Origin: Clytia hemisphaerica
Taxonomy: Eukaryota; Cnidaria; Hydrozoa; Leptothecata; Clytiidae
Length of the DNA stretch: 64,000 nucleotides
Assembly (NCBI GenBank): GCA_902728285.1
Contig: CACVBU010000871.1
Coordinates: 124,001 to 188,000, forward strand
Direction: 5' to 3'
Under the pieces are notes generated by a model, which was given only the letters and a program-made list of their open reading frames with translations, was not told the DNA's origin and did no database searches. The translations under genes and the position numbers were made by a program. How positions within the stretch are numbered: position 1 is the stretch's first letter; every line of letters starts with the position of its first letter. Shown here piece by piece: positions 4,101 through 60,200 of this stretch.

Positions 4101-7100
4101 TGAAAACGGAGGTTAGCCCAGGGCGGGGTGAACAATGGTAGAATGTCCCATTGAAGAATTTGGCGGAAATTTTGTCTCCGAAGGAAGGGAAAAATTGCAA
4201 ATCGACCCTAGCTGGACTTTTCTACTTAGGAACAATAAGTTTTTTGATAGAAATTTTCATCCCAACTGTGAAAAGAAGTTTTACTGGAGCTGTGAGACAG
4301 GGGTGCACATATGTGTTGTGGCCATGTTGACAAAAATGAGCAGAGTAGCCTTATTGTCAAGAATGACTATGAAAAATCCCTATGTAGAAAATTGGAAGCC
4401 TAGGTTGAAAAGTTTACCTTTGGATTGGTCTACAAAATGCACATTATTTTGAGACCCCGTTTGTCATCCTGCAATCCCGTTCTTGTTTCAAAGGCGCACG
4501 TTTTCAAATTTTACAGCAAAAAAATTAAAAAATTTGACAACGTTGAAGTTGCGGAAATTTCCAGCGCTGCAATTCTATAGTTCTCTTCAATTTCCTGAAC
4601 TAATACATACCTTCGACTGTCTCAGTAATGAACAGCAAAATAACACTACATTTCTCAACATTATTACGAATGACATTTTGTAAGCCTCCTTGAGCATCGA
4701 TATGGCTCATTTCTAGTAAGGGACATTCAATGGTGATATCATAACAGCTTAATATTTGTAACAAATCGCGAACAACTTGGTCGAGAATGTCACAGCCTGG
4801 TCGATGCAGAAGCAGCACGGAGGAGCAATCCAATCCTAGAATAATATAAAAATATGTTTAAAATTAAATTTTGGGCGGAGTGGGCGGCGGCTAAGGGGGT
4901 GATAGGTAAGGGAAATTAAAGCAGTCAGGTCGGCTGCGCGGACCTGCCTGAATTATAGAAAGGTGCCCAGTGGTAAAACTTCAGATTAATTCGCTGGAGG
5001 ACAGAATCAAGTAAATCAGGGCCGAATTTGGAGGTTCTGGGTTCTTGACCAAAAAACGGTCAAAATCTTTAAAAAAGTGGATTTTTGTCAAATTTTTGCA
5101 TTTTTTTGACTTTTTAGCTTAAAATCTCGCTGAAAAGACTCACTTTTGATTTTTTTTTGCTTGACCATGAAGCACAATCCAATTCCTACGAGTTAGACCA
5201 AAAATGAGGATTTCTAACTCAAACTGGGCATTACAGGAGGGCTTCGCCCTCCTACCTAGTCCATGTCTGATATATACGACATTGGCACTTAAAGGGTTAA
5301 CTATTGATAATAAAGTCACCAAAAAAGATGGATGGCCCCACCTCAGCGGTTTGCGTAAATGCGTGAATGGGCTTTTTCACTTGCGTTAATTTTAAAGAGC
5401 TCCGATCCCACAATTCATTGAAATGATTGGAAAACCGTTAAAGTTATTACCTTTCTTTTGATGTTGTAATTAATTAACGTGCAAGAAGATGGGATTGCAA
5501 GTCGTACAAACGATTAAATTTGTCCAAATCTATCACTATCTTTAGATTCGGTGCGTTGCGTAAACGGAAACTACGTGAATTTCGAAAAAAACATGCGTGA
5601 ATGCGTGAATATGTGAATTCATGAGTTGAAGGTCCGGTGGGGGCCTTCTATAGTCCACTATATTTTGGTAACTTTTTCCATTGGGAGGGGGTCCCACTGA
5701 GTCTGTGAGAAGGTATTTTATAAAAAAAGTTTTAAAATGTGCTCAATTGTAACAGAGATTTGGGAAAAGAGGATAAGAATCGCCGCTGCCGCTCGCTGTT
5801 TTCTCATTGTTGACCATTGAATTCGGCGTCGTCTGATGTCGCTAGGCTAGGGAACAACTTGGCCAAGAAGGTACTGCGAAAAAAATGGCGTTATGTGCAG
5901 TATTATAACAGTTCAAGAAAAACTGTCTGAATTTACTCCTTTGGAGGGGTTTCCTACTGATATAAACAACTGAAAAGCTAATAACGATCTTTTGGGGTTT
6001 CCACTGACAAAAAAATCTGCTGTTGCATGCTTTATTTTTTGAGAAAAAGATGGCGGATATGGCTGGCCGCATGTAGCAAAATTCAATACTTTTTTATTTT
6101 TATTCAATATCCATATTTATATTCAATTTTCTATATTCATGTTCAATTATTTCATATTTCATATTTCCATTCATATTTCCATTCAATAATTATTGCCAAT
6201 AAAAAAAATATTGCCAATAAAAAAATATTGCCAGTAAAAAAAATTATTGCCAATAAAAAAAATATTGTCAATAAAAAAAATATTGTCAATAAAAAAATAT
6301 TGCCAATAATTTTTTTCTCATTCAATAAGTTTTTAGCAAACGTTGAATGTATTTTGTCTCTTCAAAAAAATCACGTGACAACATTTCAACATTTTTTACA
6401 CCGGTCACGTGATATAATTCGTGATTCTTTCGCACGAAAAATAAACATGTGAGTTTCTTGCAAAGCAAAACTTGAGAAAAGGACTGAAGGAGGTTGGCTG
6501 GTTGGCTGTCGGGCTGTTGGTAAACTTGCTTGATAACCTTCTGTAATGCAATTTAACAGTTTAGATTGGGTACTTTTCTTGACCCTCCAGGGGTAAGTAT
6601 CTGTCTCCCCCAGTGCAGTAGGTAATGCTGTTCAGACAGCCAGCACCAGTACAGTGCAAAAAACAGGTAGTTCTTTTATATTACATCTTATAGCCTGCCA
6701 AGAGGGTAAAACAAGATCTCATTTGTCTTTCTGTCTCCCCAACCTTTGCCACTTTGTATCCCAGGCTTTTTCTCAACTGTATGTCTGTTCTGTCTGTGAC
6801 ACTCTGTAACCTGTGTGTATGTCCCAAAACTTTAGCGCACAGCCTACCTGTAAGTAAGTTTGCGACCGCAGTCGGAGGAGACTCAAAGGCTGGTTTTTTC
6901 CTCTTTCTAAAAGCTATCTACCCAAAAGTAGGGGAGGGTGCCACTCTTTTCTCCCTGGATTGCTCCACTTACCCTTGATCCTACTCTTTAATTGCTGAGC
7001 ATTAAGCAGTGAGGCATCAAGTACCATTTTTGGTATGACCCAGCCAGGGATTGAACACACCAGACTTGGCTGAAATTTTGAATACTTGTTCTCTGGGTGA

Positions 7101-10100
7101 ATATCTGGAAGTTTTTTCTTTTATTTTTAAAAATTTTGATTATTGGGGCCTGGGGACGAGTTTTTCACAACTGCTTATAATAAGGCCTCAAAAATAGTTG
7201 GAAAAATTGTTGCGCACTTTCAACTATTTACATTGCTGATAAATGCTAGAGAATGGAGCTTTTTTTAAAGAGGCCGACCTATTGAATAATTATGTATTCC
7301 AGCATAAAAACAACAATACAGCCATACATAATTAATAAAATATATACATGATACAGTAATTATGCATGGCTGTATCATTGTTTTTATGTTGGAATACATA
7401 TTCAATAGGTCGGCCTCTTTAAAAAAAGGTCTATACCCTGGCATTTGCTTGTGTGAGTCCCCCTCTGCTGAGAAGGTTTCTTACAATACTATCGATTGGG
7501 GTTACTTTCGTAATCTAAGCAAGGAAGGGGTAATGTTCTTCAATTTTTCGAACTTTACTCAAAATTTCATTTGCTCCATTCGATTGTTCGCTCTTTCATT
7601 TGTTTGTTTGTTTATCTTTTTGTTCGTTAATTTGTTTTTTAGGATCTTTTCCATTTAATGTCTTTATTTTCCAGGGGGTTTGGTAGTAAAATCTAAGTAC
7701 TATTGTGGACATAGTAAGGCGGTAATCACAAATATCTTTGTTTCGCGTCGCCCGACCGAATCTCAAAAATTGAGTAGAATTGAGTCGGTGAGTCGGTAAA
7801 TTTGTCGGACTTTTTCTGTCAATGACCTTTCTTTCGTTCAAAAATTTTATTATTGCCGATATTTTGCGAGCGATTTCAAGCGCATTCGCAGCATTTTGAC
7901 TTTTTTTATCATTACAAGCGCCATTTTGGGGTCGGAGGTCACAGTGTTCAAAGGTCAAGATTTTAAACCACCCATTACACGCAGTTGTTTTGGCTGCTGG
8001 CTGGCTGGCAGTTTCCTCCAAGAATGCACTCCAAAAATAGATGGAAAAATGGAAACCCGAAAATTTTTACGACCGAACGACCGACCGACTCACTTTTTAG
8101 ACCCAACGAGGACGCGAAATGAAGATATTTGTGATTGCCGCCTAAGAGTCAAAGTCCAATTTTGAGGAACAAAGCAATATTTTTGTTTATTATCAAACTA
8201 CACCATTGCCTACAAGGGGTACATTACACTAGTCCAACAATAAAACAGTCTGAATCCAGACGAAATCGAATCTGCCCGGAAGTATGTCTGCTGTTTTGTC
8301 CGAAAACAGTCGCATGATTTTTTATCATTCACAAATCTTTTATTTTTGGTATTTTGTCTGAAGGCCAACCTTAAAAACTAAGACGCGCCTTGGAGTTAGT
8401 TTTTTCACAATCACCTCTGAACACAAACACGAATCATCCCTGTCCGAGATATCCTGCAATTGCGGTATATGACATTTTCATTTAGCCTGAAGGTTGTAGT
8501 CCACACGTAAGCTTCTGGTCGGAAGCTGTACACAAAATTATTTTCGAAAAATCCTATATACAGAAAAAAATTGTACTGTGCAATTTTTAGTAATAAAGTT
8601 TTTTCTGAAGCTATGTATGTTCAGAAGAACTCAATACTTTATAGAATTGACGTCAATTTTCATATACTGCAATTGGGGAATTTGCCGTCATATTGTTTTT
8701 TATTTATACCGCAATTACGGTATATAAAAATTAACAGTAGTTTTTATACCGAAATTGCGGTATATATGCAGATTGACATTAGTTTTTATACCTCAATTGC
8801 AGGATATCCTCGACTGTGTACCATGTTAAAGAAATTCGCTTAGTTTAGTAACAGGACACTGCATAGTGTGCAGAGGGGTCCAGCCCCCAGCATTTTCAGG
8901 GGGACTAAGGAAAATAGCCCCCGGCTAAATTTTAAAAACGTAGCCCCACCCCCACAAAGCAAAATATCAAAGACATTTTACATGCAAATTCTCAATAAAT
9001 TTCTTGTGCCACAGGCAAAAAAAAATAATAAGGGTCAAAACCTTGCCCACAGCATAGATTTTCAACATAATTCAAAATATTTGTAAGCTATCAGCTTTGC
9101 CCCCTGTTCTATTACTCAATCTCTCAGCCCCCTAGCAAACTAGCTGCCAGTATTTTTTTAAAGATAAGCCCCCAATCAAGCAAAAATGGTTTAGCCCCTG
9201 TAAGCTCAGGGGATGCATTCTATGTTATCAACGTTTATATAATATAATGTTTATGTTTTTAAATTTCAACGGTTTTAACTTGTTTTTACATTTGTTTTTC
9301 TAAGCCTGAAGATAAACGTAAAGTTCGAAATCATAGTTTGGAAGGGGGTCACTACCCCCCTAGTCTAGGATGCAACCCCTTCAAAATTGCAGTGTCAACA
9401 GAATTTTTCCCCCTTTCAAGGCATTATTCACCATCCATTAGTGACTAAAATGATAGCATATTCACTGTTTTAAGAGGTGCATTTATAGTCCATTCTCAGA
9501 ATTCCCTCCAATATATTGTTGAAAGTAGATTGCGAGCCAAGCGAGCAAGAAAATTTTTAGGATTTTAACCTAGTTTAAGACTCCCAACCTAGAAATTTAG
9601 AAAGATGAACACATTGTTGTTACGAAGTCAGTCTAAGATTGAATATTAATTTTTGCACTTAAGTGAAAAAGGTGTCACCAACAATATTAATTTTTGGACC
9701 TACCTCGGAGGTCCTAAATTAACCTGTGTTCAGCTGTGTTCGTCCGTTCGTTCGTCCGTTAGTTACCAGCTTTTCTCGAGATTGGCTCATTATTTTTTCC
9801 TGATTTTTGGCACAAAGATGCAAAATGGCAATGCCCAAAATGTGACGGAGCCCGATTTTTGAAAAAAAAAATTTTGGGTAAATTTGGGCCAAAAACTGCC
9901 TAAAAATAGGGTTTTTTGGACTTTGTGCAAAATTGCCTCATTAGTTTTTTCTGATTTTTTGCAGAAAGATAGAGTACAAGGTACCCTAACATGTGGCCGA
10001 AAAAATTTTTCCCGGAAAATTTTTGTTCGTCGTGAATTACGGATTTTCGTTTTTGGGGAAATTCCCCTTTACCATTTTCCTGCTCCTTTAATTATAGTTG

Positions 10101-13100
10101 CTAATAAACTATTTCTCGTATTTTTGTTGACTTTTGATGGCCATTTGTTTATTTTTAGTCGCTATAAGTTTTTCTTTCCTTTTCTATTTCCATTATACAT
10201 TTATCATTAGGTAGGTCCAATATGCAATGTGCTTGTAAGAAACAATTTTTGCGTCTTTTAGTAGAAATAGTGTGAGATATCTATTTATATCAGCCACCTT
10301 ATCTGATGTTGTCACCTAATATTGAAATGCTTTAAATTCTAGAACAGAAATTAGTATTACAATGACTAAGAATATTGAAAAGGCTGCCGAGCATCTTAAT
10401 GCTGCACTCAATGAACTTTGTAAAGAAGAGGAAAGGTGAGTTGTGGTTTTCGTTTTGCAGAGTTCTTTTATTTTGGAGTATGTTAAACCAAAGCACCCTT
10501 TTCCAACTAATTTTTCCACTTATTGCAGACTGATATCAGATTATGCCTGGAAATGATTAAATTCAATCAATTTCCCTTGGCCTTTATATTTAGACCATCA
10601 TCACCACGAAGAGCAAGAGAACATGAAGCAGCTAGTTCAAGGTAAATAGAGGGATCAGTCAGCAGTAGCTGAAAGTCTGTAAAAAGTTGCTTGGTGACAT
10701 AATTTTTTACTGGCAAATTCTTTTTGATGGCAAATATTTTTTTCCAATGGATATTTTTTGCCGACAAATATTTTTACCAAATGGTTAGCTTACTTTGAAC
10801 TTTTTTGTTTAAAACTGAATTCTTGGATGCTAAATTTTGGGGTTTATGTACTATGTACGACAAAAAGTACTGACAGAAACTAAAACAAATACAATGATTG
10901 CTCAGTTCTTGTTCTGTTACTGTGTCTCCAGCCTTACTTAATTTCTCTGAAAACCTGAAAGTTACTCAATACCTAAAAAACTTTTGGCAAAAAATACTCT
11001 TCGGTAAAAAGTGACAAAGTTTTTATTGACACCTGCCCTAAGATGTGACCCACTTGCCCCAAGATGTGACCCCAGAAAAAAGCCACTTTAATCCAATTAA
11101 CTGTAATTTAGTAATTTCAGAATTAAATTCAGGTTAAATCTTTCAAATCACTGAAATTGACTACTTTCTATATAATTAATAATAGTGTTGTGTCTATAAC
11201 TGAACTCTTCAGCTGAAATTTCTGAATTCTGCTCCCTTCATCAATGTCATAGAACTTTCCTCATCGCATAGTGATTTTGCAACCTGAGGATATTTAGATT
11301 GTATACCTTTTAAATGATGTTTATTCATTTCTTTGATTTTATTTCATTTTAGAATGTTGGAACCACACACATCAGCATCAGTGATTTCTACAGCACAAAA
11401 ACTTATCCAGAGAGCATCTTCTTCAGGATCATTTGCTAACCCAAACAGAAGGATTAAAAAGCAGGAACGTTTACGAGTAGTCAGTGAACCACCCAAAAAG
11501 AAAGAGAAGAAAGAGAAGAAAGAAAAGTATGAGGAATTGCACTTTTTCTTTAAACTTCTTAGAGCACTTGAGGACGATGACGAGGCTGCTCTAACTGTGA
11601 ACGAAGATACAACTATTGCAAGAGGTGTGATCATCGCTACATCTGTGGATAGTGAATCCATGATCAGGGAAAAGATCCACAAGTTGCTAGTAAAGGACTT
11701 ACCAACAATTGGTAAATATGACTTTGAATTTGTGAAAGTGGAAAGAAAGGCTGTTGTGAATATGCAAGTTGGAGATGGTTTAGAGTACGATTTCAAAATG
11801 ATTAAAAAGATTGCTGGACAAGGAGCATTGTATTTGAAAATTAAGGACTTTTACAAATTTGTTTACAAAGATTCTGATTCTGATCCTGACAACAAAAATC
11901 TACCAAAGGTGCTAACTGAAGTAAAAAAGGAGAATATCGTAGATTTGACCACTAAAGACAATGATGAGAATGTGAATGATGAAGCAAGAAATGCTACAGC
12001 AGAAAGCGAAAATAATGCCAAAAGCCCTCCAGCAGAAGAAAGAAAAGAAAACATTCCCCCACAAGAACATCATAATGAAAAATTGGAAGAAGGTCCCTAT
12101 GCATGTGTTATCAAAGAAGCAAAATCTAAGAGTTTTGTAAACGATATTGAAATTCTAAAATTTTTCCAATCAAAAATTCAAAAGGGCAGACCATTGGACG
12201 TTGAAGATCCAGATAGCTTGAGCCTACTTGAAGGTGAAACGAATGACATCTCTGTTGACAGGGAAAATATCGTTAAAACAACAATGGATGAATTGGAGTA
12301 TGTAGAAGATTTTTCTGTAACCTTCAATGTTGAATTTATCGCAGAAGGAGTATTGGATCACGGTGGCCCACGGAAGGAATGGATGGACTTGACTAATAAA
12401 AGAATGTATGAAATTTACTTTGAGTCTGGATTGAGAGAATTACTCTGGCAAGATTATTATTTTGTAGGAGCAATGATTGGAATAACTTTATTACAAAATG
12501 GGCCAATTCCCGCCATCCCAGAAAACATTTGTAATCTGATCATTGGTGGAAGTGACAATAAATGCATTTTGAAGCTTGTTCAAGGACTTGAAACTGTTGG
12601 TATGGCTAGCATTTTTAAAGCCTTCCCATCCGTCTTGCATATGTTAACAAAACCTAAAGAAAGAGCCGTTTCTGTCTCCGATATAAGAAGAATTTTCAAA
12701 CCTGATTTTGCCGCCGAAGGCAGCTCAGCACTTGTATGCCAAAAACAGGTTTACTCTGTTTTCAACAAGTACGTTAGAGAAGTTGCTGCAGGAATGAGAA
12801 AGGTGGAAATCCAGGAAGGCAAGCAAACCAGCCTTACAACGTCTGATATCTTGCAATTTGCAACCGGTTCGTCAACTATACCAATTTTTGGCTTTGCGTC
12901 TCCACCAACACTAATTATGCCACTACCATTAGAAAATCTGAATGAACATACAAATACAATACTCCCCAGCTTTTACCCTACAACGAACACTTGCTCGAAT
13001 GGACTGGTCATTCCTAGGCCAACTCACCAATGGAAACTTCCAGACGAAAAGAGATTGTTCGAAATTTACGACGAAGCATTCAGCTCGAAATATTTTGGTA

Positions 13101-16100
13101 AACGTTGATATGTTCATGATTCAGATTTCTTTCATATAGAAGATTCAATGGAACGTTGTTGATTTTGTTAATATTTGTTCTACACTGCATTAACTGAAAA
13201 TTTTGTTTGCCATTTTTATTGTCTTTTGAATTTTAATTTGGATAATTTGATAGTCCTGGATAGTGAGAAATCCAGTAAATTTATTCTTTGAAGGTTTTTT
13301 TAATTGTGAGAAAAAGACTTCTGTTGGTTCCGAATTTGTGTGTCAAATCTAGACATGCTTTCTCTAGGTTAAGATATACTTCTATCATAAGTGCAACTTT
13401 TACCTTACTTTGTTACACTCTCATTATATGTCATACGAGACCAAAATAGCTATTTACTTTTGCTTTAAACATATTTTACTTGAATTTGTTACATATTACG
13501 TACTGGATTCCAGGAAGACATTTTATATTATGTTATTTGATTTTGTTTAACATTCTATTGGTAAACTGAGAGATTAGCTAGGTAACTTACAACCTAGCCC
13601 ACTGGATATAAATAATTCTTCACGCAGGCAAATAAATCAAAATGAAAAATCGTTGCATCGCAGGAACAAAATTTTCAAGGTTAGCTAATTCCTAATGAAC
13701 ATTTTAGTTTTTGCTGATTGTTGATATTGTCTCTTCTGAGCCGATACTTTAGAAAACTAAAAGCAAAAACTAGTCGCTGAACCGTTGATAACTTTGGTTT
13801 GCCTGGCTAGACTGGAAAATGATAAACTTACGTGTTGCCATAGTTGTGAACATTTATTTACGTCATTGGTCCTTTTTATCCTCCTAAAGTTATTTTTTTA
13901 TTAAGAGTTTGAATTATAATTAGGTTTTGTATGCCCACCATACCAAAGAAATGCCCGAAAGTGAGACTTTGATATTAGTCCATGGAAAGTGTGCATCAAT
14001 TTTGCGTCTTGACTAGAAAGCATGAAATTTGGCTCAGTGGTACTTTAGGGGGTAAGAAACATTGTAAGCCTCTGACCCACTTCCGGAATAACATGTTTGT
14101 GTATTTTACAGACCAGAATGCCTCCCAAGAAAAAATTTTTATCTTCAAAACATGTCATGACATGTGTGTGAAAAGGGGTCTCACACCTCCCTTTATGCAT
14201 ATCCTTTTTGCAAAATGTACCTACCCCCTGGAAAACCGCCATTTTTTCAGAACCTTAGCCAGGATAGATTTTCCAGTTGTCCCCTAATTCTAAGAATTTC
14301 TTCAATTTTCGAAGTTGAAAATATGTTTTTAGGTAGGTTTACTGGTAAAAAATTAAAGACTTTTGAGAAAATGTGAAGCTTTGTTTGTTGCATATTGTTA
14401 CAAATTTCCCTCTAAAAATCCTTACCCCTCCCTTTGAAAATCTACCCCTCCCTTTATAAGGCCTTTTTCCCTACCCCTCCCCTTTGGTGATTTTTGGGAA
14501 GGCTCTACCCCTCCCCTTTTAGAAAGGGGGTGTTCGCACTATGCATGATATACTGCTGGAAAGGTTTTCTCACACTGATTCTAAAGAACATCACAACATG
14601 CATCTGAAAATGGACTAGGTCCGAGTTGTGGGCCCGGATTCATTCTGGTCTGTAAAATACTCCCATGGCCTGTAACTCGGACCCAGTCCATATTCAGATG
14701 CATGTGATGTTTTTTAGAATTTGTGTGAAAAATCCTTTACAATTGTAATGACATGTTTTGGACATAAAATTTTTTGTGTGCCCTGGAGCTATTCTGGTCT
14801 GTAAAATACTTCCGTGGCTTATTTCACGGACCCAGTCCATTTTGTTATGCTTATTGTCATATGATTTCTAGAATCAGTGTGAAAACCCTTCCCAACAGTA
14901 TAGGATATGACATGTTTTGGAAAAAGAAACATAAAGTTTTTTTGGTGCAAGCAAACTGGTCTGTAAATTACTTCCGCGCAGCCCATAACTCTTTCACATT
15001 AATGTTGTGATGCTTTTTAGAATCAGTAGTGTGAGAAAACGTTTCCAACGGTTTATCATATAAGATATTTTAAAGACAATTTTTGCTTTGCTGGAAGGCA
15101 TTCTGGTCTGTAAAATACACAAACAGGTGTTCCGAAAGTGGGTCAGAGGGTTAAAATGTTTCTTACCCCTCAAGGTACAACAGTACCAAATTTCATGCTT
15201 TCCAGTGACACACTTTTGCACACTTTTCCTGGACTAAATATATATTTATAACTTGGTCTATATTGTTACCAAACGAAATGTACATGTCTTCTATTGCAAA
15301 TTATGATTCCGCTCGACCTGTGCACGTAGTGTTGTATTAGCATTTAAATTTTAAGATTTGTTTTATTGTAGCTTTTTTAGGACTCATTGATGGTGCAATT
15401 ATCCTTAAAATGCTTAGCTTTCCTATAGCCCTTTCCTATAGTTTTATGTATTTGCTAGAAGCGTCATGTTGAAAGAGGAGGGGTTTGAGGCCAAGTAATT
15501 GGAACACCTTAACATTGTGATAAAAACATGTTTCAATCAAAGATGAGGGCTTACGAATTTCTGATAATGTTGGTGTTATCGTTTTTTTCGGACAAAGTTT
15601 CAGTCATTCTATCTCTTTTTCGCCACTAAACTGCACACCCGTCAGGAGATTTTTTAAAGTGAAATTTGGATGCGCCATCAAGTGTCACATTTATATTAAA
15701 TTTTTAACTTTGTAAACTTTATTCTTTATGTTCAACTTGATAAAGATTTTCTCAACAATAACAGTTTTTCAGCCAGACTTATATACGCAATTTTGTCAGC
15801 GTACAATTTTTTTAAATATACCCAAGCAAGAATTGGGCCGAATTCACTACGCAAACCACGTGTCATTAAAAGAAACAATCAATGCCATGTGATAATAACA
15901 AACTTGAAAAACAATAGAAACAAAGAAAGTCTGTCATATTTGTTATGGTTTTATGTTTTGACATGTGACATTTGTTTTGATTTTGTGTCCCGCAGCATAC
16001 AGTTTATTTAAATTTCGTAAGTACTTTCATGTCCCTTTAAATTGATGATTGTAAACGGTTTTTTTATAAAAATAAGTAAAATTTTGGCCAAGACTGATTT

Positions 16101-19100
16101 TGTGATTATCTACTTATTCATTGTGTGAATAACTACGCTTTCATCTTTTAGGTCTAATAAAAATGGAAGAAACACTAAATAATTTACTGTTGATAACTCG
16201 AGACATTTTGGAGAAGAATACGATCACAGAGAATTTCAAGAAAGAAATATTGGATACCATGAAAATAACTGAAGACACGTGTTCACTATTAACGGAAATT
16301 GAACGAGATGAACCGGATAGCGAAAAACGGAAACATCTTGCCGATTTAGCAGATTGTTTTATATCAGTTTATGAACTACTCAGTCAAAAATACGACCTGG
16401 TATTACATGAAGTTACTCTCCGCACAACCAAATGTGAAGTTTTGCGAGATGGTCAACCTGGTAGACCGAAGTTCCACATACCAAAGGAGGTACTTGAAGA
16501 GTTACGTGGCATGAACTTTACCTGGGATAAAATTGCAGAAATGTTAGGTGTATCACGCTGGACAGTCGGTAGACGTGTCGACGAATACGATTTGAAAGGA
16601 TTACAGGGATTTTCCGATATTTCTGATGAAAGGATCGACGAAATCGTATCTGAGTACATCGAGAAACATGGATCAACTACAGGAGAGCCTTTTATGACAG
16701 GATATTTTCGTTCTATCGGACTAAATATACAGAGGAGACGAATTCGAGCCTCTTTAAAACGCGTGGACCCTAGAAACTCGGCTTTAAGATGGGGACTATT
16801 GATATATAGACGGAGATACTACGTGCCTTGGCCAAATTCACTTTGGCATGTCGATGGCCATCATTCCCTTATAAGGTGGAAGTTTGTCATTCATGGGTGC
16901 TGTGATGGCTTTTCGAGAAAAATTATGTTTTTGAGCTGCAACACAAACAATCTTGCATCTACTGTGAGGGATTGTTTCCAACAATCTATACAAGAAAACT
17001 GCGGACTTTGGCCCTCCAGAATACGTGTTGACCATGGTGTTGAGAATGTTCTCATATGTGATTTGATGGTGGAAAAACGAGGTGAAGGCCGTGGAAGTTT
17101 TATAGCCGGACCTTCAACGAGAAATCAACGTATAGAACGTCTCTGGCGCGACGTTTTTCGTTGTGTTGCACATTTTTTCTACTATCATTTCTATGCAATG
17201 GAACTGTGTGGCGTTTTAAATTTGGAAAATCCAGTGCATCTCTTTGCACTACACGTTGTTTACAAAGTGAGAATAAATTCGGCTCTACTAGAATTCAAAG
17301 AAATGTTTAATAACCATCGACTATCGACCGAAAAAAATAAAACTCCCAATCAACTATGGCTTGAAGGAATGTTAGACCCTGTAAACCCACTATCCAAAGA
17401 TGATATTGAACCGGACCAGCATGTTGATGAATTTTATGGTGAGGATCCACAGGGCCCTAGAAGTAGAAATAGTAACAATAATGTCGTCGTGGAAGAATTA
17501 GAAATTGAAAACCAAGATGAATTGTTGCATTATGTGAGATCTAACATTGATCTTAATAGGGAGTCAAGGGACGCCGGTATTGACATATATTTAGAAGTTG
17601 TAAATATTTTGAATAGCTTGGAATAACACAAACAAAATAGTATTTCCTTCAAAAGAAATCTTTTCTGTCTACTCATTTGTGCTTAGTTGTAGGGGGGCTA
17701 GGCAGATATATACGGGTCTTAAGGGTCGATTTTTTAGGGTCACTTTTTCGCCAGATCTCTCTAGAAGTCAGGCTTGTCCGGATTCGCACATACCTGACAT
17801 TATCCAAACCTAGTACCCCTGGACATTTTTCTAGGCAGGGACTTTTTGGGAAGACCCCCAATATCACATAAGTGACCCTCGCCCGTTTTATTCTATTTCC
17901 CCATAAGTACTCACCCCTGCTTATTCCACCACCTACAATTATGCATAAAATTATGCCCTCACGTTTCTTCGTTTTTTTTTCACTCAACAGTGCATTATTT
18001 TACCGAGTTCAAACCCTTATAATGCAGTATATTACCGTGTCTCTTTTCTTAAGAATTACCCTGGGATATTTAAAAACGGCGAGAATCATACAAATATGGG
18101 CTTTTTGAAAGTAAAAAGAAGAGAATGAAAATTTTTAGTAAGTTTGGTTTAGTCTTGAATTATCATTTTTGCCCAAAAATATATCCATGCTTACAGTGCA
18201 CTTCCTCAAAAGTACACCCTTACAATGCACTTCTAGAACCTCATAAAACCTGCCGTAGGTCGGACCATAATGATGAAGTGCCCCAGGGTTATAAGGTAGT
18301 GAAATCAACCTCAATGTGTGCACCTGTGTGCACCAAATGACGACGGATTGAATCTGGCGGTTTCATTCTTTTCCAGTAGCACATATTTCAAATTAATAGT
18401 CGATTTTACCTTCAATCCGTCGGTTGTATGAAAACCATGCGGACCGAGCAATGAAATGAGGTAGAAAATTCGCTTTGGCGCATTTTATTACGCTTTATTT
18501 AGCGCGCTGTGTGCTTTTCAATCATTGTTGTATGGCTGAGGTTCCAAGTAAACAATCACGAATTCCTTAAGTGATCACGTGATATATCTATTGTGGAGAC
18601 CTTCATTCAACCTTTACTGAAAACTTATTGAATGAGGAAATTTATTGGCAATAATTTTTACTGCCAATACTTTTTTATTGGCAATATTTTTTTCATTGGC
18701 AATACTTTTTTTATTGGCAATACTTTTTTATTGGCAATATTTTTTTATTGACAATACTTTTTTTATTGGCAATATCTTTTTTTATTGGCAATATTTTTTT
18801 TATTGGCAAATATTTTTTTTTATTGGCAAATACTTTTTTATTGACAATAATTATTGAATGAAAATATGAAATAATTGAATATGAATATTGAAAATTGAAT
18901 ATGAATATAGAAAATTGAACATGAATATAGAAAATTGAATATAAATATGGATATTGAATAAAAATAAAAAAGTATTGAATTTTGCTACATGCGGCCAGCC
19001 ATAGGCGGAAGCAGGCATGCTAAAATAGGATGTGAAATGGGACCTTTTTATTTTTAGCTAGTTTGCCTTACTGGAAAGGCTTTCAGAGTCAAAATAAAGT

Positions 19101-44418: not shown

Positions 44419-46816
44419 GAGTCTGCTAAATCGCGTGCCAACGTGCCATGCGTGCCAACGTGCCTTGGCGTGCCAGCGTGCCAACGTACCAGCGTGCCAT
44501 CCAAATTTGGCGTGTCATTAAAATTTCGGCGTGCCATCCGAATTTTGGCGTGCCATCCGAATTTCGGCGTGCTCGTCCGAATTTTTACCGAAATTTCGGT
44601 AAAGCTTGGGGGAGAAGATGACACAACTTGGACCCCCCCCCCCAATATGGACCCCAATATGGACCCCCTCAAAATTAGCGGGAAAGCATTTTCAAGGTGT
44701 ATACATCAATTTACAACAAGATGTTTTCTCGTGCTCAATAGCAGGATGCTGGCGGTGCAAATGGATATAGATTGTCATGCAATGAAAACATTAAATGCTC
44801 CAAGAGAGCTGTTTTAGAGATATGAAAATAGTAGTACTTTTATTATTATTTTATTATTTTCATTTTTATATGAACAGAGCATTACATAACAAAAGTTTTG
44901 AAGGGGATACACGTGTTTCTTCCACGCGAAAGGCAGTAGTCTACCTGTCATTTTCTTGACAAAGTGACACTTTTTGACAAAATTATTATATATATATAAA
45001 TTTACTATTCCCTATTCCTAGGTTGAATAGGATGCAAGTCCGTTTTGATATCAAAATAGACTTGCATCAAATTCTCGTCAATAAATAAATGTAAATGTAA
45101 ATAAATAAAATTCTGGATAACCCAGTCTCATCATAGAAAATAATATCTATTTTCTCCTTTTCAATGCATCATTACATAAGCCATCAATGCCCAAATTTTC
45201 ATTGGCCATTACCTGTTCCATCAGAGACCTAACTGGTCGGCCTCTTTTGGTGTACTTGTCATCATTAAAAGTAAGCTTTTTGACATTTCGATTCACTTGC
45301 ATATGGATTACATGAGCAACGTAATTGCGTTGCTGATTTTTAATAAATACACTCACATCCTTTGTGTCACAAATTTCATGTAAACGAACATTACTAATCA
45401 TCATTCGAAAATCATTCTCCACTTCGTTTACGTGTTTCATGCCATTACGAATCATACGTCTAAGGAACATACGATATGTTGCATCAATGCGATCATATTG
45501 GTTCTGGGTGATATTCCAATTCTGACATGCATAGGTCAATCTACTACGAACGAAGCTGTTCAAGAATTTTACACGCGTTTTCAAGTTGATTTGAAAGTTT
45601 TGCAGTAAATTTGATAATTCATTAAACTTAACGGATGAAATTTGAATTCTGTTATTTATTTCGACGTTACCTGAATTTGGTTCCAAATAGTCTATATGGC
45701 AGCCAAGGTATTTGAATTTTTGAACATTTTTCAGCGGAGAGCCATCAATCGAAATTATGGTTGCCGGGTATTCATTTGTATTTGGGTTTTCACCGTTGAT
45801 AATCATTGTCTCCGTTTTAGAGGTGTTTATTGTCAGACCAAAATTTTTGAATACAGAGTTCAGTAGATTTGCAGAATTGTTGAGACAGATGTGATTTGTG
45901 AGAAACAGAACTAAGTCGTCGGCATATCCACACAAGGGTAATGTGGAGGAGCCGTTCAAGTCAATGCTTTGTTCTCTGAGTGTGTATCGTTCTTCCCTTG
46001 TCAAACTCCTGGGGTTGATACGATACTTGTGTTCGAAGAATTGGGTATTGGTAGATTTTTCGATAAATACGCGCACCACAAAGTCAATGAATAAATTGAA
46101 AAGGAAGGGGCTCTCTGGACCACCTTGTCGGACACCCGAAGTTGTTTGAAATGTTTCGCCTTCATACGTTAGGCTTGTGTATGCATACAATTTTTCAAGA
46201 ATACTGATTACATGAGGTGATTGGTTTGCAGCAAAGCGTAGCTTGATAGAATCGAACAGCCACTTCCTTGGAATGTGGTCGAATGCAGCTGTTAGGTCGA
46301 CAAAGAGAAGGAATAGAGGTTGCTTTTTTCGGTGGGCGATTTGATGGATACGTTTTACGGTGTAGATGCCGTCAGTGACATGGCAATTAAGTGGGATACC
46401 TGCAAGCTTTATTACACCAAATATTTCAATTGTACCGAATGAGATGCCTTTGATATAGATGGATAAATATTGGGGTTTGTGTAATTCGCGATTCACGATG
46501 CACGATGTGCGATCCATGTATAATTTATGGCACGCCGAAATTCAGATGGCACGCCAAAATTTGGATGGTACGCCGGAATAAGGATGGCACGCCGGAATAA
46601 GGATAGCACGCCAAAATTCGGATGGCACGCCGAAATTCGGATGGAACGCCGAAATTCGGATGGCACGCCGAAATTCGGATGGCACGCCAAATTTGGATGG
46701 CACGCTGGCACGTTGGCACGCCGAAATTCGGATGGCACGCCAAATTTGGATGGCACGCTGGCACGTTGGCACGCTTCAAAACCGCTGGCACGCGTGGCAC
46801 GCGATTTAGCAGACTC
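44419..46816. mobile_element. 2.4-kb foldback element with tandem-repeat inverted ends and 9-bp duplication
   Basis: The ends are GAGTCTGCTAAATCGCGTGCC at the left and its inverse at the right, with a perfect 9-bp direct duplication CGATTTGTA (44410-44418 and 46817-46825). The inverted ends (44419 to about 44590; about 46524-46816) are made of 19-bp units GGCACGCCGAAATTCGGAT. A 9-bp duplication is typical of Mutator-like elements, and internally repetitive ends are typical of foldback elements. No transposase is seen; the interior holds a reverse transcriptase remnant. Confidence 0.85.
45147..46490 (-). pseudogene. Non-LTR retrotransposon reverse transcriptase, 5'-truncated
   Basis: One long minus-strand frame encodes the fingers/palm and thumb of a LINE-type reverse transcriptase: FVDLTAAFDHIPRKWLF (motif A), TTSGVRQGGPESPFLFN (motif B), GYADDLVLF (motif C), KTETMIING and FKYLGCHID. 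A C-terminal region then reads RSRLTYACQNW and KRGRPVRSL. The endonuclease and the start of the RT domain are missing, so it is a dead 5'-truncated copy. It lies inside the foldback element at 44419-46816. The same family recurs at 54640-56461. I cannot assign the clade with confidence. Confidence 0.8.
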
Positions 46817-50186: not shown

Positions 50187-53153
50187 CTAAGAATCAGACA
50201 ACAATTCCTCTTCATTCGTTCGCTCTTGATATTGTTTTTCAGTGATTTTCCCTTTCTTCAACTTTTTCAATAAACGTCCTTCTTTCATCAAATCATCAAC
50301 ATCATCAACATCGTCATCGCCATCGTCCTTCAATTTCCTTTTCAAAGTCTGTTTCTCTTTCCGTTCATTTTTTTTCATCTTCTTTTCTTTTTGTCTAGAC
50401 CAGCTATCACTTTTCCGGGTCTGTTGGCTCGCCTTGAATTTCGCTTTCTCGATAGCCTTCTCCTTTGCAGCTTCCGTCTCCTTTTCAACCCTCTCGAGAC
50501 GGGCTTTCTCTCTCACCTTATCCTGATACTTAATCAGTGTCGTATCAACATCCACCGTTTCAAAACCATTCAAATCTTTCTCCTTCAGCTCCGGCATTTT
50601 CGGTAAGTGCAACAACCCAAAACCGTAACCAAGTTTGCAAATATCTAGCTCCTTCATTTGTAAGACGATATTGCATTGATGCTTAATATAACTTTGGATA
50701 AACGAGACAAAAGCTCTTAAGCCTTTTTCATAAACTTCGCGGTCTTTGGAAGCAATTTTACGAATCTTGTGAGACATGCTGTAAGAGTCATCAATGATAT
50801 TCTGTCCCTCATATTCATCGATTTGAACTTTTTGATTGATTTTAACAAAATCGATGTAAGCTACTTCGCTCGGTAGTAGCAATAACAAAGCTTTACCTAT
50901 ATTTCCCATACGGGCGGTCCGCCCACACCGATGAACAAACGCCTCTACATTGGAGGGCGGATCGTACTGGATGACCCAATCGACCGTTGGTATGTCAATA
51001 CCTCGAGCCATGACATCAGTGCAGGTCAAAATCCCATGTTTTATATCTTGAAATTTATTGAATACTTCAGCTCGCTTCACTTTCTGTCCGTGGATAGATA
51101 AAATTGGAATGTTCTTCAAAAGTATGGCTAATAATTTTGTGAAATAATCCACGCATGCGCACGTGTTGAAAAATATGATGAATTTTTCGTCACGATGTTG
51201 TCGAAGTAGTGCGACAAGTCGTTGGAGTTTGAAGTCAGCTTCGCAAACGAAATAGAAGTTGCTTAAAGAATCTGGAGTCCTTTTGATTACATTCTGAGCA
51301 CGCTTTTCACGAACAACAACTTGGACTGGGTTCCGTAGCCCAGCACGAATGAACGATTCGATTTCTGTAGTTTGTGTAGCAGAAAAGAGGCTAGTGCGGC
51401 GTTGCTTTGGTACAAAGGCTAAGATATTTTGTAGGTCTTCACGAAAGTTGGCTTGTTGGAAGAACCGGTCCGCCTCGTCTAAGATTAAAATTTCCAACGC
51501 TTTCAAACCTTTTTGGAAAAGTTCCCCCGTCTTTGTATCTTTCACCATTTTGGCAAATTTCCCTGGTGTTGCGACTATGATGTGACCTCCTTCTTCGTTG
51601 AATTTCTTAACAGGGTCTTCTTTAGATTTTCCACCGACAATCAAGTTACTGGTTAAAGAGATTTTCTCAAGGAATGGGTTAAGAACGTTGTTGATTTGGA
51701 TAGCGAGTTCTCGTGTAGGGGAAAGGATAAGAGCTCCGATGTCGTGTTTCTTGAGCTTTTCTTCGCGGTTTTGTAACATCTCGATCACTGGAAAGGAAAA
51801 AAATATTTAAAATTAATGACGCACATAAATTGTGGTGAACGGTTAATTTGATACTTTATCATCGAGTTGCGTTTTCGGAGCTTTAATATGCCATTCCATT
51901 TTATATCTAAAGAGTGGGGGGGGGATGGACAAACATTTTACATCTAAAGAGGGGGGGGGGATGGACAAACATTTTATATCTAAAGAGTGGGGGGATGGAC
52001 GAACATTTTATATCTAAAGAGTGGGGGGGATGGACGAGCATTTTATATCTAAAGAGTGGGGGGAATGGACAAACATTTTATATTAAAGAGTGGGGGGGGG
52101 ATGGACAAACATTTTATATCTAAAGAGTGGGGGGGGGATGGACAAACATTTTTATCTAAAGAGGTGGGGGGGATGGACAAACATTTTTATCTAAAGAGTG
52201 GGGGGGGATGGACAAACATTTTATATCTAACGAGTGGGGGGGGGGATGGACAAACATTTTGTATCTAAAGAGTGGGGGGATGGACGAGCATTTTTATATC
52301 GAAAGAGTGGGGGGGGGGGGTGGACAAACATTTTATATCTAAAGAGTGGGGGGGGGGAGGGACGAACATTTTATATCTAAAGAGTGGGGGGGATGGACGA
52401 ACATTTTATATCTAAAGAGTGGGGGGATGGACAAACATTTCCAGAGGGTAATCTAAGGAAAATTTAATTTCTAGGGGGTGTTTTTTCATTTTTCGAAGGG
52501 GGTAACTATATTCCACTGCTCCCAAAATCTGAACAAATTTTTAAAAAATTTCTGAAATTCCTCTACAAAATTGGCTCGAGGTGAATCATAAGCATGATTC
52601 ATAATCATATAATAAGCATAAGCTATGCCTGGATGCTTTAAGAACTTTGAAGCATACACGAGCCTAACCAAGGGGCGTACACTTGCTTATAAGAAAAAAA
52701 CATGGTAACGAACCTTAACATGAGACTTAAGACTTGAAGATCTGAGGATCCAAACGTTTAAAGATGGTTCAATAAGGCTCAAAATATATAACCTAGAAGT
52801 CTATAAACCCAAGCCAAATTTAAATGCCCGATTAAATTTAAGAAATGGCCCAAAATCGACTTTCGCGTCCGAACTCCAAATTTTGAAAAACGAGGACATA
52901 AGCTTAATTCTCAATAGATTATTATCTCAATCGACCATGATTGGAACGAACCTGGAATAAGGAAAGCCAGTGTTTTTCCGCTCCCGGTCACAGCTTCGGC
53001 TACAACGTCTTTATTGGATAAAATGAGTGGTATACAAGTTGCTTGAACTGGTGTTGGTTGATCAAAACCAAGGTTGTCCAATGTGTCCAAAGTCGTTTGC
53101 TTCAACGCTTTCTTTAGTTTCAAATTAGCAAATCCACCAGCCGAGGATACCAT
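50187..53153 (-). CDS. ddx55: ATP-dependent RNA helicase DDX55 (Spb4 family)
   Basis: Two exons, 52952-53153 and 50187-51787, join in phase 1 (CCA G|TG) to give 600 aa. The DEAD-box motifs are in order: Q motif with TPVQ (34-37), AVTGSGKT (54-61), PTRELA (91-96), DEAD (171-174), SAT (203-205), then RGIDIP and [10 protein letters not shown]. The Spb4/DDX55-specific C-terminal part follows: the PKMPEL segment, a long charged coiled helix, and [15 protein letters not shown] near the end. This family acts in the nucleolus on 27S-type pre-rRNA during maturation of the large ribosomal subunit. The exon 1 frame is open upstream of the chosen ATG, but that ATG gives the usual family length. The single intron contains a 35-bp minisatellite. 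Confidence 0.95.
51911..52440. repeat. 35-bp minisatellite in ddx55 intron, about 15 copies
   Basis: Unit GGATGGACAAACATTTTATAT plus CTAAAGAGTGGGGG, varying mainly in the length of the G run (about 5 to 12). The C-rich strand is the sense strand of ddx55, so the pre-mRNA would carry C runs and the coding-opposite strand G runs. Confidence 0.9.
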
Positions 53154-57227: not shown

Positions 57228-60200
57228 TCATCTTTTGCCAGGAACCAAGAGCTTGCCATCAAAAAGCGTCGCCACATCTTCCATTCGAATGCCTTTTGTT
57301 TCCGGTAGCAACAAAAACAAAAACAAACAACCACAAAATGTCAAAATGGCGTAGAAAATAAAAACACCTGGTTTAGTAAACCATTCGATTAAATTCAAAA
57401 ATGTCAACGAAATCACAAGATTAAAAGTCCAGTTTGTACTTGTGGCTGCACTTTGACCGATATTGCGTGCCCATAGTGGGTACATTTCTGCATTGATAGC
57501 CCAGGGTAGCGGACCAACACCTACAGCAAAAGCAGCCAAGAAAAAGATCATCCCAGAAACTGCAAGCCAAGCCGTAGATGAAGGACAAGACAAGGTTGAC
57601 CATTTAAGATTGCTTATATCTTCTTGTAGGTTAAATACTGAATTGGAGCACCAATCAGTTCTATGGTCATTGACTTTTCGTGTCTTATTGATCGGTAGAC
57701 AGGAAGCTTTTGAAGGCTCCAACCCTACAGTCGTGTAACAAAATCCGCATTTTGAGTTTTCAATGCATGTAAAACAGCGATCATAATTCATGCATTTGCT
57801 AGCAAATGTTTTATTTGAGGACAAACCAAGCGTTGGTTTAAAATTGGTTTTCATAGAATTCTTATAAAAGAAAATAAAGGTCGAAGCGATTATGAGGAGA
57901 CCTACACCAGTACCAAATAGACTACCAATCATCAATTTACGACGCTTGATTCTATCCACGATAAACATTGCAAAGATTGTGACAGCAAAGTTACCAAAAG
58001 AGACGATAGTTGCCATCCAAAGGATTTCCGTTTCGTCTTCCACTCCAGCCATTTCGATTATGGTAGCACTGTAATACCTGTTGTGGTGTATTATACCGTA
58101 AGTTGGTCTAACGTCGACATCCCTCTTCTAATTCCGACATCCAGTTTTAGAGATAGGAATAATAGTAAGGTCAAAATCACTGATAGACGAAAGATTTTTT
58201 CCTCCCTGGTCACTAAGCAAAGAAATATAGTTTCAATAAGCGATTCTATTATATAATACTATTCATAACTTTAAAGAAGGGTGTCGGGATTAGAAGAGGG
58301 ATGTCGACATTAGACCAACTTACGGTAATATGAGGAACATGAGATAAACATTATATATAGGTAATCTCTACTATAAAATGATTTAGTTTGAAACCAAGAA
58401 GTTGAAATGAAAATATTTGTTGAATATTATGAAATATCGTCGCATCTTAAACTGATGTGACAGTTTAGGGCAAAAAAGCCAAAATCCAATGTGGAAACAA
58501 TTTGACTTAAGGCTTGGACTGGACTTAAGGCTTTTTTAACACAAAACTATTTCAAAATGTTAATGGTTTTTTAGGATTTAAGGAAAAATAATTTAAAGCC
58601 GATTTTCTCAAAACAACAAAAATGGGCTTAAAGCTTTTTTATTTTGATGCGACGATATGTGATCACGACGTTTGTCCAAATTTGACATTACTCTAGAAGC
58701 TCTTTGGGATGTGTTAACCCTTCGAACATATTCCTATTTGTTTAGTAGGGAAAGTATCTTAGGGGGAGCTTTAAAATGCGAAGATTGGCAACTGCTATGG
58801 CCTTGAAACTTTGACCAGTGGTTGAATGGAGACGATGTGGTTCAGCCACCTGTCTAGTTAGTATTTTACAGACCAGAATAAAAATTTGGCTACAAACACG
58901 TATTGACCGATTGGATCGTTCAATTCGATTGAAATTTGTTTCTGAAGGCTGGTTTGTCGAATAAAAGAGACTAGTAACAGAAAATATTTGGTCCCATGAG
59001 TATTTAGTACTTAGCAGACCTGTCTGTAAAGTACTTACCGGAACTCAGGAGCTCACGTGGAGTTGCCGCAAAGTAAAAAAAAGTTAGAGGGGGTCCTATT
59101 ATTGGCATTTTTTGAAAATGATGACGTCATCAGGTGGCAATGACGCCATCAATAATGCCAAAATTTTAACAAAGATGTCAATTCATATTTGGTGCACACT
59201 TGCAAAATTTCAAGTTAATCGCTTGGGGGTGGGTGGCCTCTTTGCCCCACTCCCCCCAAAGATGCTCGAAGGGTAAAAGCAAACCAAAGGATGAAAAGTA
59301 AAGCAGAATAAGAGGAAACTTTAACAATGAAAAAAGTGCCAACAGTCAGTGATAAATCTTCAACTTATGATTGATAAAAAGGTTCGCATTATATGAGTAT
59401 TTGGCAAAGCACGCTTGAAATTTGAGCTAAGAAAACCTACATGACTGTATTGATAGCAGAAAATTGTTGGAATGCTTGTAGACCACAACCGACTAATAAA
59501 GCCCTTTTTACACCAGTTGATTGACCAACTTTCTTCAATGTGTCCATGAATGAATCTGAAGAAAATAAAATAAAATAAAATTTCTCAAAATAGGTACTCT
59601 AAGCCTCAGCTACTTAAAAAGGGGGTGAAGTTGGAGTAAATCAAAGCATAGTCCTAAATTATACTGGGCTATTCACTTAAAATATTAACTCTTTCAAGAG
59701 AAAACTTAAAAGTATAGAAGCAGCAAATTGATTAGCTAAATAAGCAGTCGACTCTTGAAGATGGTCGAAAATGGTAATTTCAATTACTGGGCTTTTCCAG
59801 AAATAGTCCTTGGCCCTCCTGTTGAGGATATCGGATATCCAGGGGGTTAACGATTTTTGGTCAAAAGTGGATATGCAGGGGGTTAAATATATGCAAGGGA
59901 GCGGATATCTAGGGGGTAAAGTGTCTTTTCAAGTAAAAAATACGATATCCGTAAGCATCTTTATAAGAGAGGATATCCAGGGGGTTGAGCATAATTTTAA
60001 GAGTGGATATTCTTATTTTTCTCTACCCATAATGTTACATTGGGCTTTTCCAGAAAAAAGATTTACCCTCACTGTTGAGGATATTGATTTTTCGAAGTAT
60101 CGAACCCCCTGGATATCCTACTTTATTAGTAAAGACCCCAGCAGTCGACTCTTGAAGACGATAGTCCTTGGCCCCCCTGTTGAGGATATCGGGGGTTCGA

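Follow-up and report, generated by a model that had tools for sequence, protein, structure and literature searches.

IS3EU/GingerRoot DNA transposons are described as having TA..TA termini, usually 6-bp target-site duplications, and an integrase-like DDE transposase without the HHCC zinc domain (in the sections of PMC10045372 drawn on here). In fungi, the ends of these elements read TAYGG..CCRTA, and the elements carry TET/JBP dioxygenase and alpha-kinase genes, passenger genes being exchanged with other transposons (in the corresponding sections of PMC12730594). A link to the ubiquitin system has been reported for Helitrons with VTD or OTU deubiquitinase domains, proposed to prevent the degradation of proteins needed for transposition (in the part of PMC9741609 that deals with them). 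Here, we describe a transposon of 12,946 bp from the hydrozoan Clytia hemisphaerica, at positions 6058-19003 of a 64,000-nucleotide stretch of contig CACVBU010000871.1 (hereafter, the window), in which an integrase-type transposase gene is accompanied by a gene for a HECT protein, a predicted ubiquitin ligase.

Like the fungal TET/JBP elements, this transposon has an extra protein gene beside the transposase, but enzymes and hosts differ, and the Clytia elements have HECT genes in several gene orders. It resembles the deubiquitinase Helitrons in being a DNA transposon that bears a ubiquitin-system enzyme; those, however, are rolling-circle elements with a ubiquitin-removing domain within the Helitron frame, whereas here a separate gene is predicted to add ubiquitin. 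The words HECT and ubiquitin are absent from the main texts of PMC10045372 and PMC12730594, and a literature search over titles, the beginnings of abstracts and parts of the IS3EU papers found no HECT gene described in IS3EU/GingerRoot elements. Within the reach of this search, no description exists of a DDE transposase whose recurring partner gene encodes a ubiquitin ligase.

Both ends of the element read TATGGCTGGCCGCATGTAGC and belong to inverted repeats that are identical over their outermost 90 bp and more loosely similar across about 250-290 bp. The flanking DNA reads ..GATGGCGGA on the left and GGCGGAAGC.. on the right, with GGCGGA on each side, so that the exact inverted ends and perfect 6-bp duplication claimed in a preliminary description of this DNA are confirmed. 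Since the ends are of the TA..TA type (TATGG..CCATA, as in a derivative of a second family treated below), the duplication is 6 bp long and the DD34E transposase lacks the HHCC domain, placement among IS3EU-type DNA transposons is supported, a group that the preliminary description had named for its 6-bp duplications. Polintons (Mavericks) also have an integrase-type enzyme and 6-bp duplications. However, seven other open reading frames (ORFs) overlapping the element (90-141 aa; the scan covered ORFs of at least 90 aa and left out an antisense ORF at 11344-11796 inside a HECT exon) had no Pfam match at E<=0.01, including none to DNA polymerase B, ATPase or capsid genes, and a Polinton was rejected, in agreement with the earlier exclusion.

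The integrase matches PF24764 (rva_4) at E=1.9e-72, and its catalytic residues are D231, D290 and E325, with 34 residues separating D and E. The DD34E part of the earlier "HTH-DD34E" assignment therefore stands, while the helix-turn-helix-like (HTH) stretch has sub-threshold Pfam matches, as do the rve matches. Pfam gave no zinc-binding (HHCC) integrase domain at E<=1. Database relatives numbered 1562 at E<=0.001 (7993 candidates scored), and those named among the 120 matches listed come from corals and sea anemones (Dendronephthya, Paramuricea, Montipora, Porites, Actinia). In the structure model the catalytic core is of low confidence; residues 1-81 are predicted to form a three-helix N-terminal bundle before the HTH-like stretch (predicted local distance difference test, pLDDT, 86-94 per block). 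This enzyme presumably moves the element.

The HECT gene has three predicted exons that join, through GT/AG junctions, into a single open frame of 625 aa, as had been proposed. Its product is very divergent from cellular HECT ligases such as AREL1 and NEDD4: it scores 21.7 bits against Pfam HECT, under the gathering cut-off of 23.9 that all seven database relatives scanned (P0002-P0008) pass, and the best solved chain, AREL1, reaches 25.8 bits. A database search with the whole protein returned one match (7991 candidates scored), and the search redone with the HECT part returned nine relatives at 154-323 bits. Likeness to the cellular enzymes lies in the predicted fold and in an aligned cysteine motif. 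The exon 3 model has a mean pLDDT of 58; within residues 251-500, 20 of 25 ten-residue blocks lie above 75. The best 50 of 120 matches from a PDB fold search with it were all HECT proteins (best E=1e-7), among them the HECT domains of ITCH, SMURF, NEDD4 and HUWE1. The TNTCSNGLVIP motif aligns to AREL1 TAHTCFNQLCLP, which holds the catalytic-type cysteine of the C-lobe, and recurs in eight of the nine database relatives, the ninth (P0001) being an incomplete sequence. The catalytic-type cysteine is also found in the HECT proteins of two further Clytia families, C652 (SNTC) and C77 (AHIC), the latter keeping the motif at about 39-40% identity to the window protein. N-terminal parts vary, with a SAM domain in C652, a weak RING-like match in C77 and an unclassified region in the window protein, and differ from those of the cellular ligases. 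The HECT protein is presumed to be an active ubiquitin ligase. No relative turned up when the viral_contigs set was scanned with the integrase, with its alignment or with that of the HECT protein, and a viral origin was rejected.

The pairing of the two genes was followed across the host assembly (417 Mb, 951 contigs). Pairing was defined as a HECT locus at most 20 kb from an integrase locus, with expectations assuming an even spread across the assembly. Searches with the window's own HECT exon (48 matches, merged into 43 loci) and integrase (89 matches, 87 loci; 88 of 518 candidates scored) placed 19 of the 43 HECT loci beside an integrase, compared with 0.37 expected. Thirteen of these pairs include HECT-domain sequence and six the N-terminal part only (C170, C248, C342, C653, C899 and C939). 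With Pfam models (HECT, 119 matches and 80 loci; rva_4, 150 matches, 150 of 596 candidates scored), 28 of 80 HECT loci were paired (1.19 expected), and the two search types united gave pairing at 42 places. Top-scoring Pfam HECT loci, taken as mostly host genes, were paired in 2 of 19 cases, and the remainder in 26 of 61. As a control, the unrelated transposase PF13359 (152 matches, 148 loci merged from those listed) lay near an integrase at two of its loci (2.21 expected), that is, without clustering. The co-occurrence proposed in the preliminary description is thus far above the even-spread expectation, with a clean control on the integrase side.

The architecture of the pairs varies between families and is constant within some of them. 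In the 28 Pfam pairs, the HECT gene is convergent with the integrase in 19, downstream on the same strand in 6, upstream on the same strand in 2 and upstream on the opposite strand in 1. Over the united set, HECT lies upstream on the same strand in the window, C77, C332, C261 and C788, and downstream on the same strand in C652, C35, C281, C456 and C851; a convergent arrangement with a gap of 1857-1864 bp is found on five contigs (C334, C419, C421, C624 and C899), two other contigs have gaps of 4103 and 4108 bp, and further architectures exist. These differences in gene order show that shuffling or capture of the genes took place more than once.

Copies sharing the element's ends were sought with its first 403 bases, and the best 30 of the 65 matches were extracted. 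Twelve distinct sites, the window included, have both ends paired, and the ends are taken as genuine beyond chance because 11 of the 12 bear a perfect 6-bp duplication; the remaining matches were single-ended or not extracted. The site without a duplication was seen twice, on contigs C49 and C920, where 150 bp of flanking DNA are 99-100% identical, so the assembly may hold both haplotypes in places; the flanks of this insertion read CCCCAAT and TTGGGG. Apart from the window, the two-ended sites measure 0.8-2.2 kb and consist of end regions only, some with the integrase 3' end. Since these short copies are without an intact integrase as well as without HECT, they are internal-deletion derivatives.

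The sole other long copy found, C594:1974932, is collinear with the window element, its two genes being ordered and oriented alike. HECT identity is 93.7% over 585 aa, the integrase pieces are 97.8% and 81.6% identical over 225 and 174 aa, and 410 of the last 411 bases of the integrase gene are the same. This copy is decayed, with a stop in HECT, an altered first splice donor and an interrupted integrase, and its right end was not found within the 20 kb read. The preliminary description had named copies consistently lacking HECT as a finding that would speak against a two-gene element; both long copies have the gene, and the short ones lack an intact integrase too. A third, near-identical HECT copy at C548:473701-475436 (97% and 94%) contains one stop; neither an integrase nor an element end is listed in its vicinity.

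A second family was searched for with 10 kb around C652 as the query against the genome. Matches on C281, C456 (twice), C383, C312 and C340 have starting points at most four bases apart (query 744-748), and query base 748 is the first base of TATGGAACGCCATAGC, giving a left end of TATGG... A derivative on C383 has the same 25 bases at each end (TATGG..CCATA), inverted repeats about 466 bp long (84%) and the duplication CTTTAC. In C652, C281 and the two C456 copies, the left end is followed by the integrase and, downstream, by HECT; the C456 pair has a common left flank and looks like a local duplication. Past the HECT gene of C456, at 410936-411150, there is an inverted match (77%) to a portion of the repeat region. 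In C35 and C909 both genes are present and the match begins further in, that on C909 stopping inside the HECT gene.

In this family, both proteins begin with a SAM domain. The HECT protein scores 26.5 bits for SAM_1, matches the SAM of the integrase at E=2e-7, and passes the cut-off at five copies in a genome scan; the integrase scores 23.2 bits (cut-off 23). This shared beginning suggests binding between the two. In the pearl oyster Pinctada imbricata, a HECT protein shares 30% identity with the first C652 HECT exon across 434 aligned positions that take in some of the SAM, its own SAM score being under the cut-off; the C652 type of HECT protein is therefore not confined to this genome. The SAM-HECT protein of C652 (L051:4472-5809) also has a C..C..H..C motif, which we take to resemble a ubiquitin-binding zinc finger. 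In the HECT protein of the C77 family (L049:4244-5365), the HECT domain is preceded by a weak match to a RING-like zinc finger (14.7 bits, against a cut-off of 25.2), and the adjoining rva_4 integrase is split over two reading frames; 13 kb of this locus revealed no element ends.

Given the recurrence of HECT genes next to one transposase type across families in this genome, we lean, by a modest degree, towards a two-gene IS3EU-type transposon whose predicted HECT ligase likely serves the element, probably by docking on the transposase, where it would ubiquitinate proteins of the transposition complex. The two-gene mobile unit first proposed from the window gains from the pairing beyond expectation and from a second long copy that agrees with it in gene order. 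In the proposed mechanism, the transposase would attach to the ends of the element and link it to target DNA at positions staggered by 6 bp, and the N-terminal part of the ligase would bring it to the transposase complex, where it could ubiquitinate the proteins present. Mu and retroviral integrase-DNA complexes are very stable after strand transfer. The first-choice target would be such a tight integrase-DNA complex, either the integrase itself or host proteins on it, whose removal would open the new joints to repair and adjust the amount of transposase. The SAM pair is why clearing or dosing of the transposase complex is favored; both the binding of the two proteins and the target of the ligase are predictions. 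HECT and integrase occupy separate frames in several gene orders, which is easier to reconcile with a helper acting in trans than with a domain fused to the transposase. More tentatively, and with less confidence than in the reading above, animal IS3EU elements might be two-component machines in which a DDE transposase associates with a HECT ligase dedicated to it (through paired SAM domains in one family), with ubiquitin transfer a built-in step of transposition and not a host response. If a ubiquitin ligase is indeed a recurring partner of the transposase, the system would offer a direct test of whether ubiquitin controls transposase removal or dose, and part of the divergent HECT genes here, and perhaps in other animals, would be explained as transposon genes.

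Several observations weigh against a ligase that serves the transposon. A two-gene copy with both ends and a duplication is seen only at the window, and the right end of the two-gene C652-family copies, C456 included, was not found in the three extracted loci read. The SAM of the C652 integrase barely exceeds the cut-off, and the SAM pair is seen only in that family, the window's own integrase and HECT protein having no shared domain (best BLASTP E=0.056). Between the window and C594, the nonsynonymous (dN) and synonymous (dS) divergences of HECT are 0.0106 and 0.0171, with 14 amino-acid-changing and 5 silent differences in 561 codons, and this one pair, in which the C594 copy is dead through a stop, gives no sign of strong selection. 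Among the 25 window-like loci with HECT-domain sequence, 12 have no listed integrase nearby, and 119 of the 150 rva_4 loci have no Pfam HECT nearby; these counts come from lists in which 88 of 518 and 150 of 596 candidates were scored, and divergent HECTs are missed. Paired loci are not independent, some being copies, duplications or perhaps alleles. PF13359 lies near HECT at 5 of its 148 loci (1.18 expected; three of the five at one place, C212), and because of this slight over-representation HECT loci may, to a small degree, sit in repeat-rich places. The differing gene order is compatible with repeated passive capture.

The same association data would fit a helper aimed at host defense, in which the HECT protein would have factors of silencing or restriction degraded, allowing the element to be expressed and tolerated. 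Countering host control has been proposed both for TET/JBP in fungal IS3EU elements and for ubiquitin proteases in Helitrons (in the sections of PMC12730594 and PMC9741609 that discuss them). Such a target, however, leaves the SAM domains on both the C652 integrase and the ligase unexplained, as these point to the transposase as the partner, and we regard it as possible but rather unlikely. Docking on the transposase complex thus remains the reading that we prefer. A passively captured, hitch-hiking host gene with no role in transposition appears clearly improbable. The variable gene order, the short derivatives without HECT and the closeness of dN and dS in the one testable pair would all suit it, as would the swapping of passenger genes with other transposons by fungal IS3EU elements (in the parts of PMC12730594 concerned with passenger genes). 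Yet the pairing is seen at 42 places, in several different architectures, and this recurrence makes a passive passenger less likely; moreover, the nine database relatives are far nearer to the window HECT than is any HECT of solved structure (at most 25.8 bits), and the cysteine motif survives in the divergent C77 protein. Finally, that transposons merely piled up in the same repeat-rich regions, with HECT from a different element, is next to impossible: both gene types are repeated in the genome and PF13359 is slightly enriched near HECT, largely at a single place, but the absence of any PF13359 excess near integrases led us to reject chance co-location for these, HECT-integrase spacing is constant across contigs, and the window genes lie inside one perfect end pair with a collinear sister copy.

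Table 1. Features of the two-gene element, in window coordinates.
Feature	Position	Strand	Basis or remark
Left target-site duplication, GGCGGA	6052..6057	none	Sequence
Left terminal inverted repeat, start TATGGCTGGCCGCATG	6058..6349	+	Perfect over 6058-6147, looser to ~6349; genome matches of element positions 1-252/292
Nested insertion with ends GGCGGTAATCACAAATATCTT / inverted copy	7719..8142 (approximate)	none	Absent from C594 sister copy (element 1661 to 2086 bridged)
HECT gene exon 1, ATG start (predicted)	10362..10435	+	Sequence
HECT gene exon 2 (predicted)	10594..10641	+	Sequence
HECT gene exon 3 (predicted): N-terminal domain, linker, HECT domain with TNTCSNGLVIP	11353..13108	+	Sequence, homologue alignment, structure match
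DD34E integrase-type transposase, 487 aa, PF24764 (rva_4)	16163..17626	+	ORF, Pfam, database relatives
Right terminal inverted repeat, end CCAGCCATA	18728..19003	-	Sequence and genome matches
Right target-site duplication, GGCGGA	19004..19009	none	Sequence

The nested insertion makes up part of the 12.9 kb. Inverted-repeat blocks at about 7241-7446 and about 13975-15235, inside the element, resemble nested small transposons. No conserved RNA was found at the gathering score. The neighborhood of the element in the window looks ordinary, with a reverse transcriptase (45147-46517), an SPB4-type DEAD-box helicase (50187-51788) and a sugar transporter (57228-58052), all on the minus strand.

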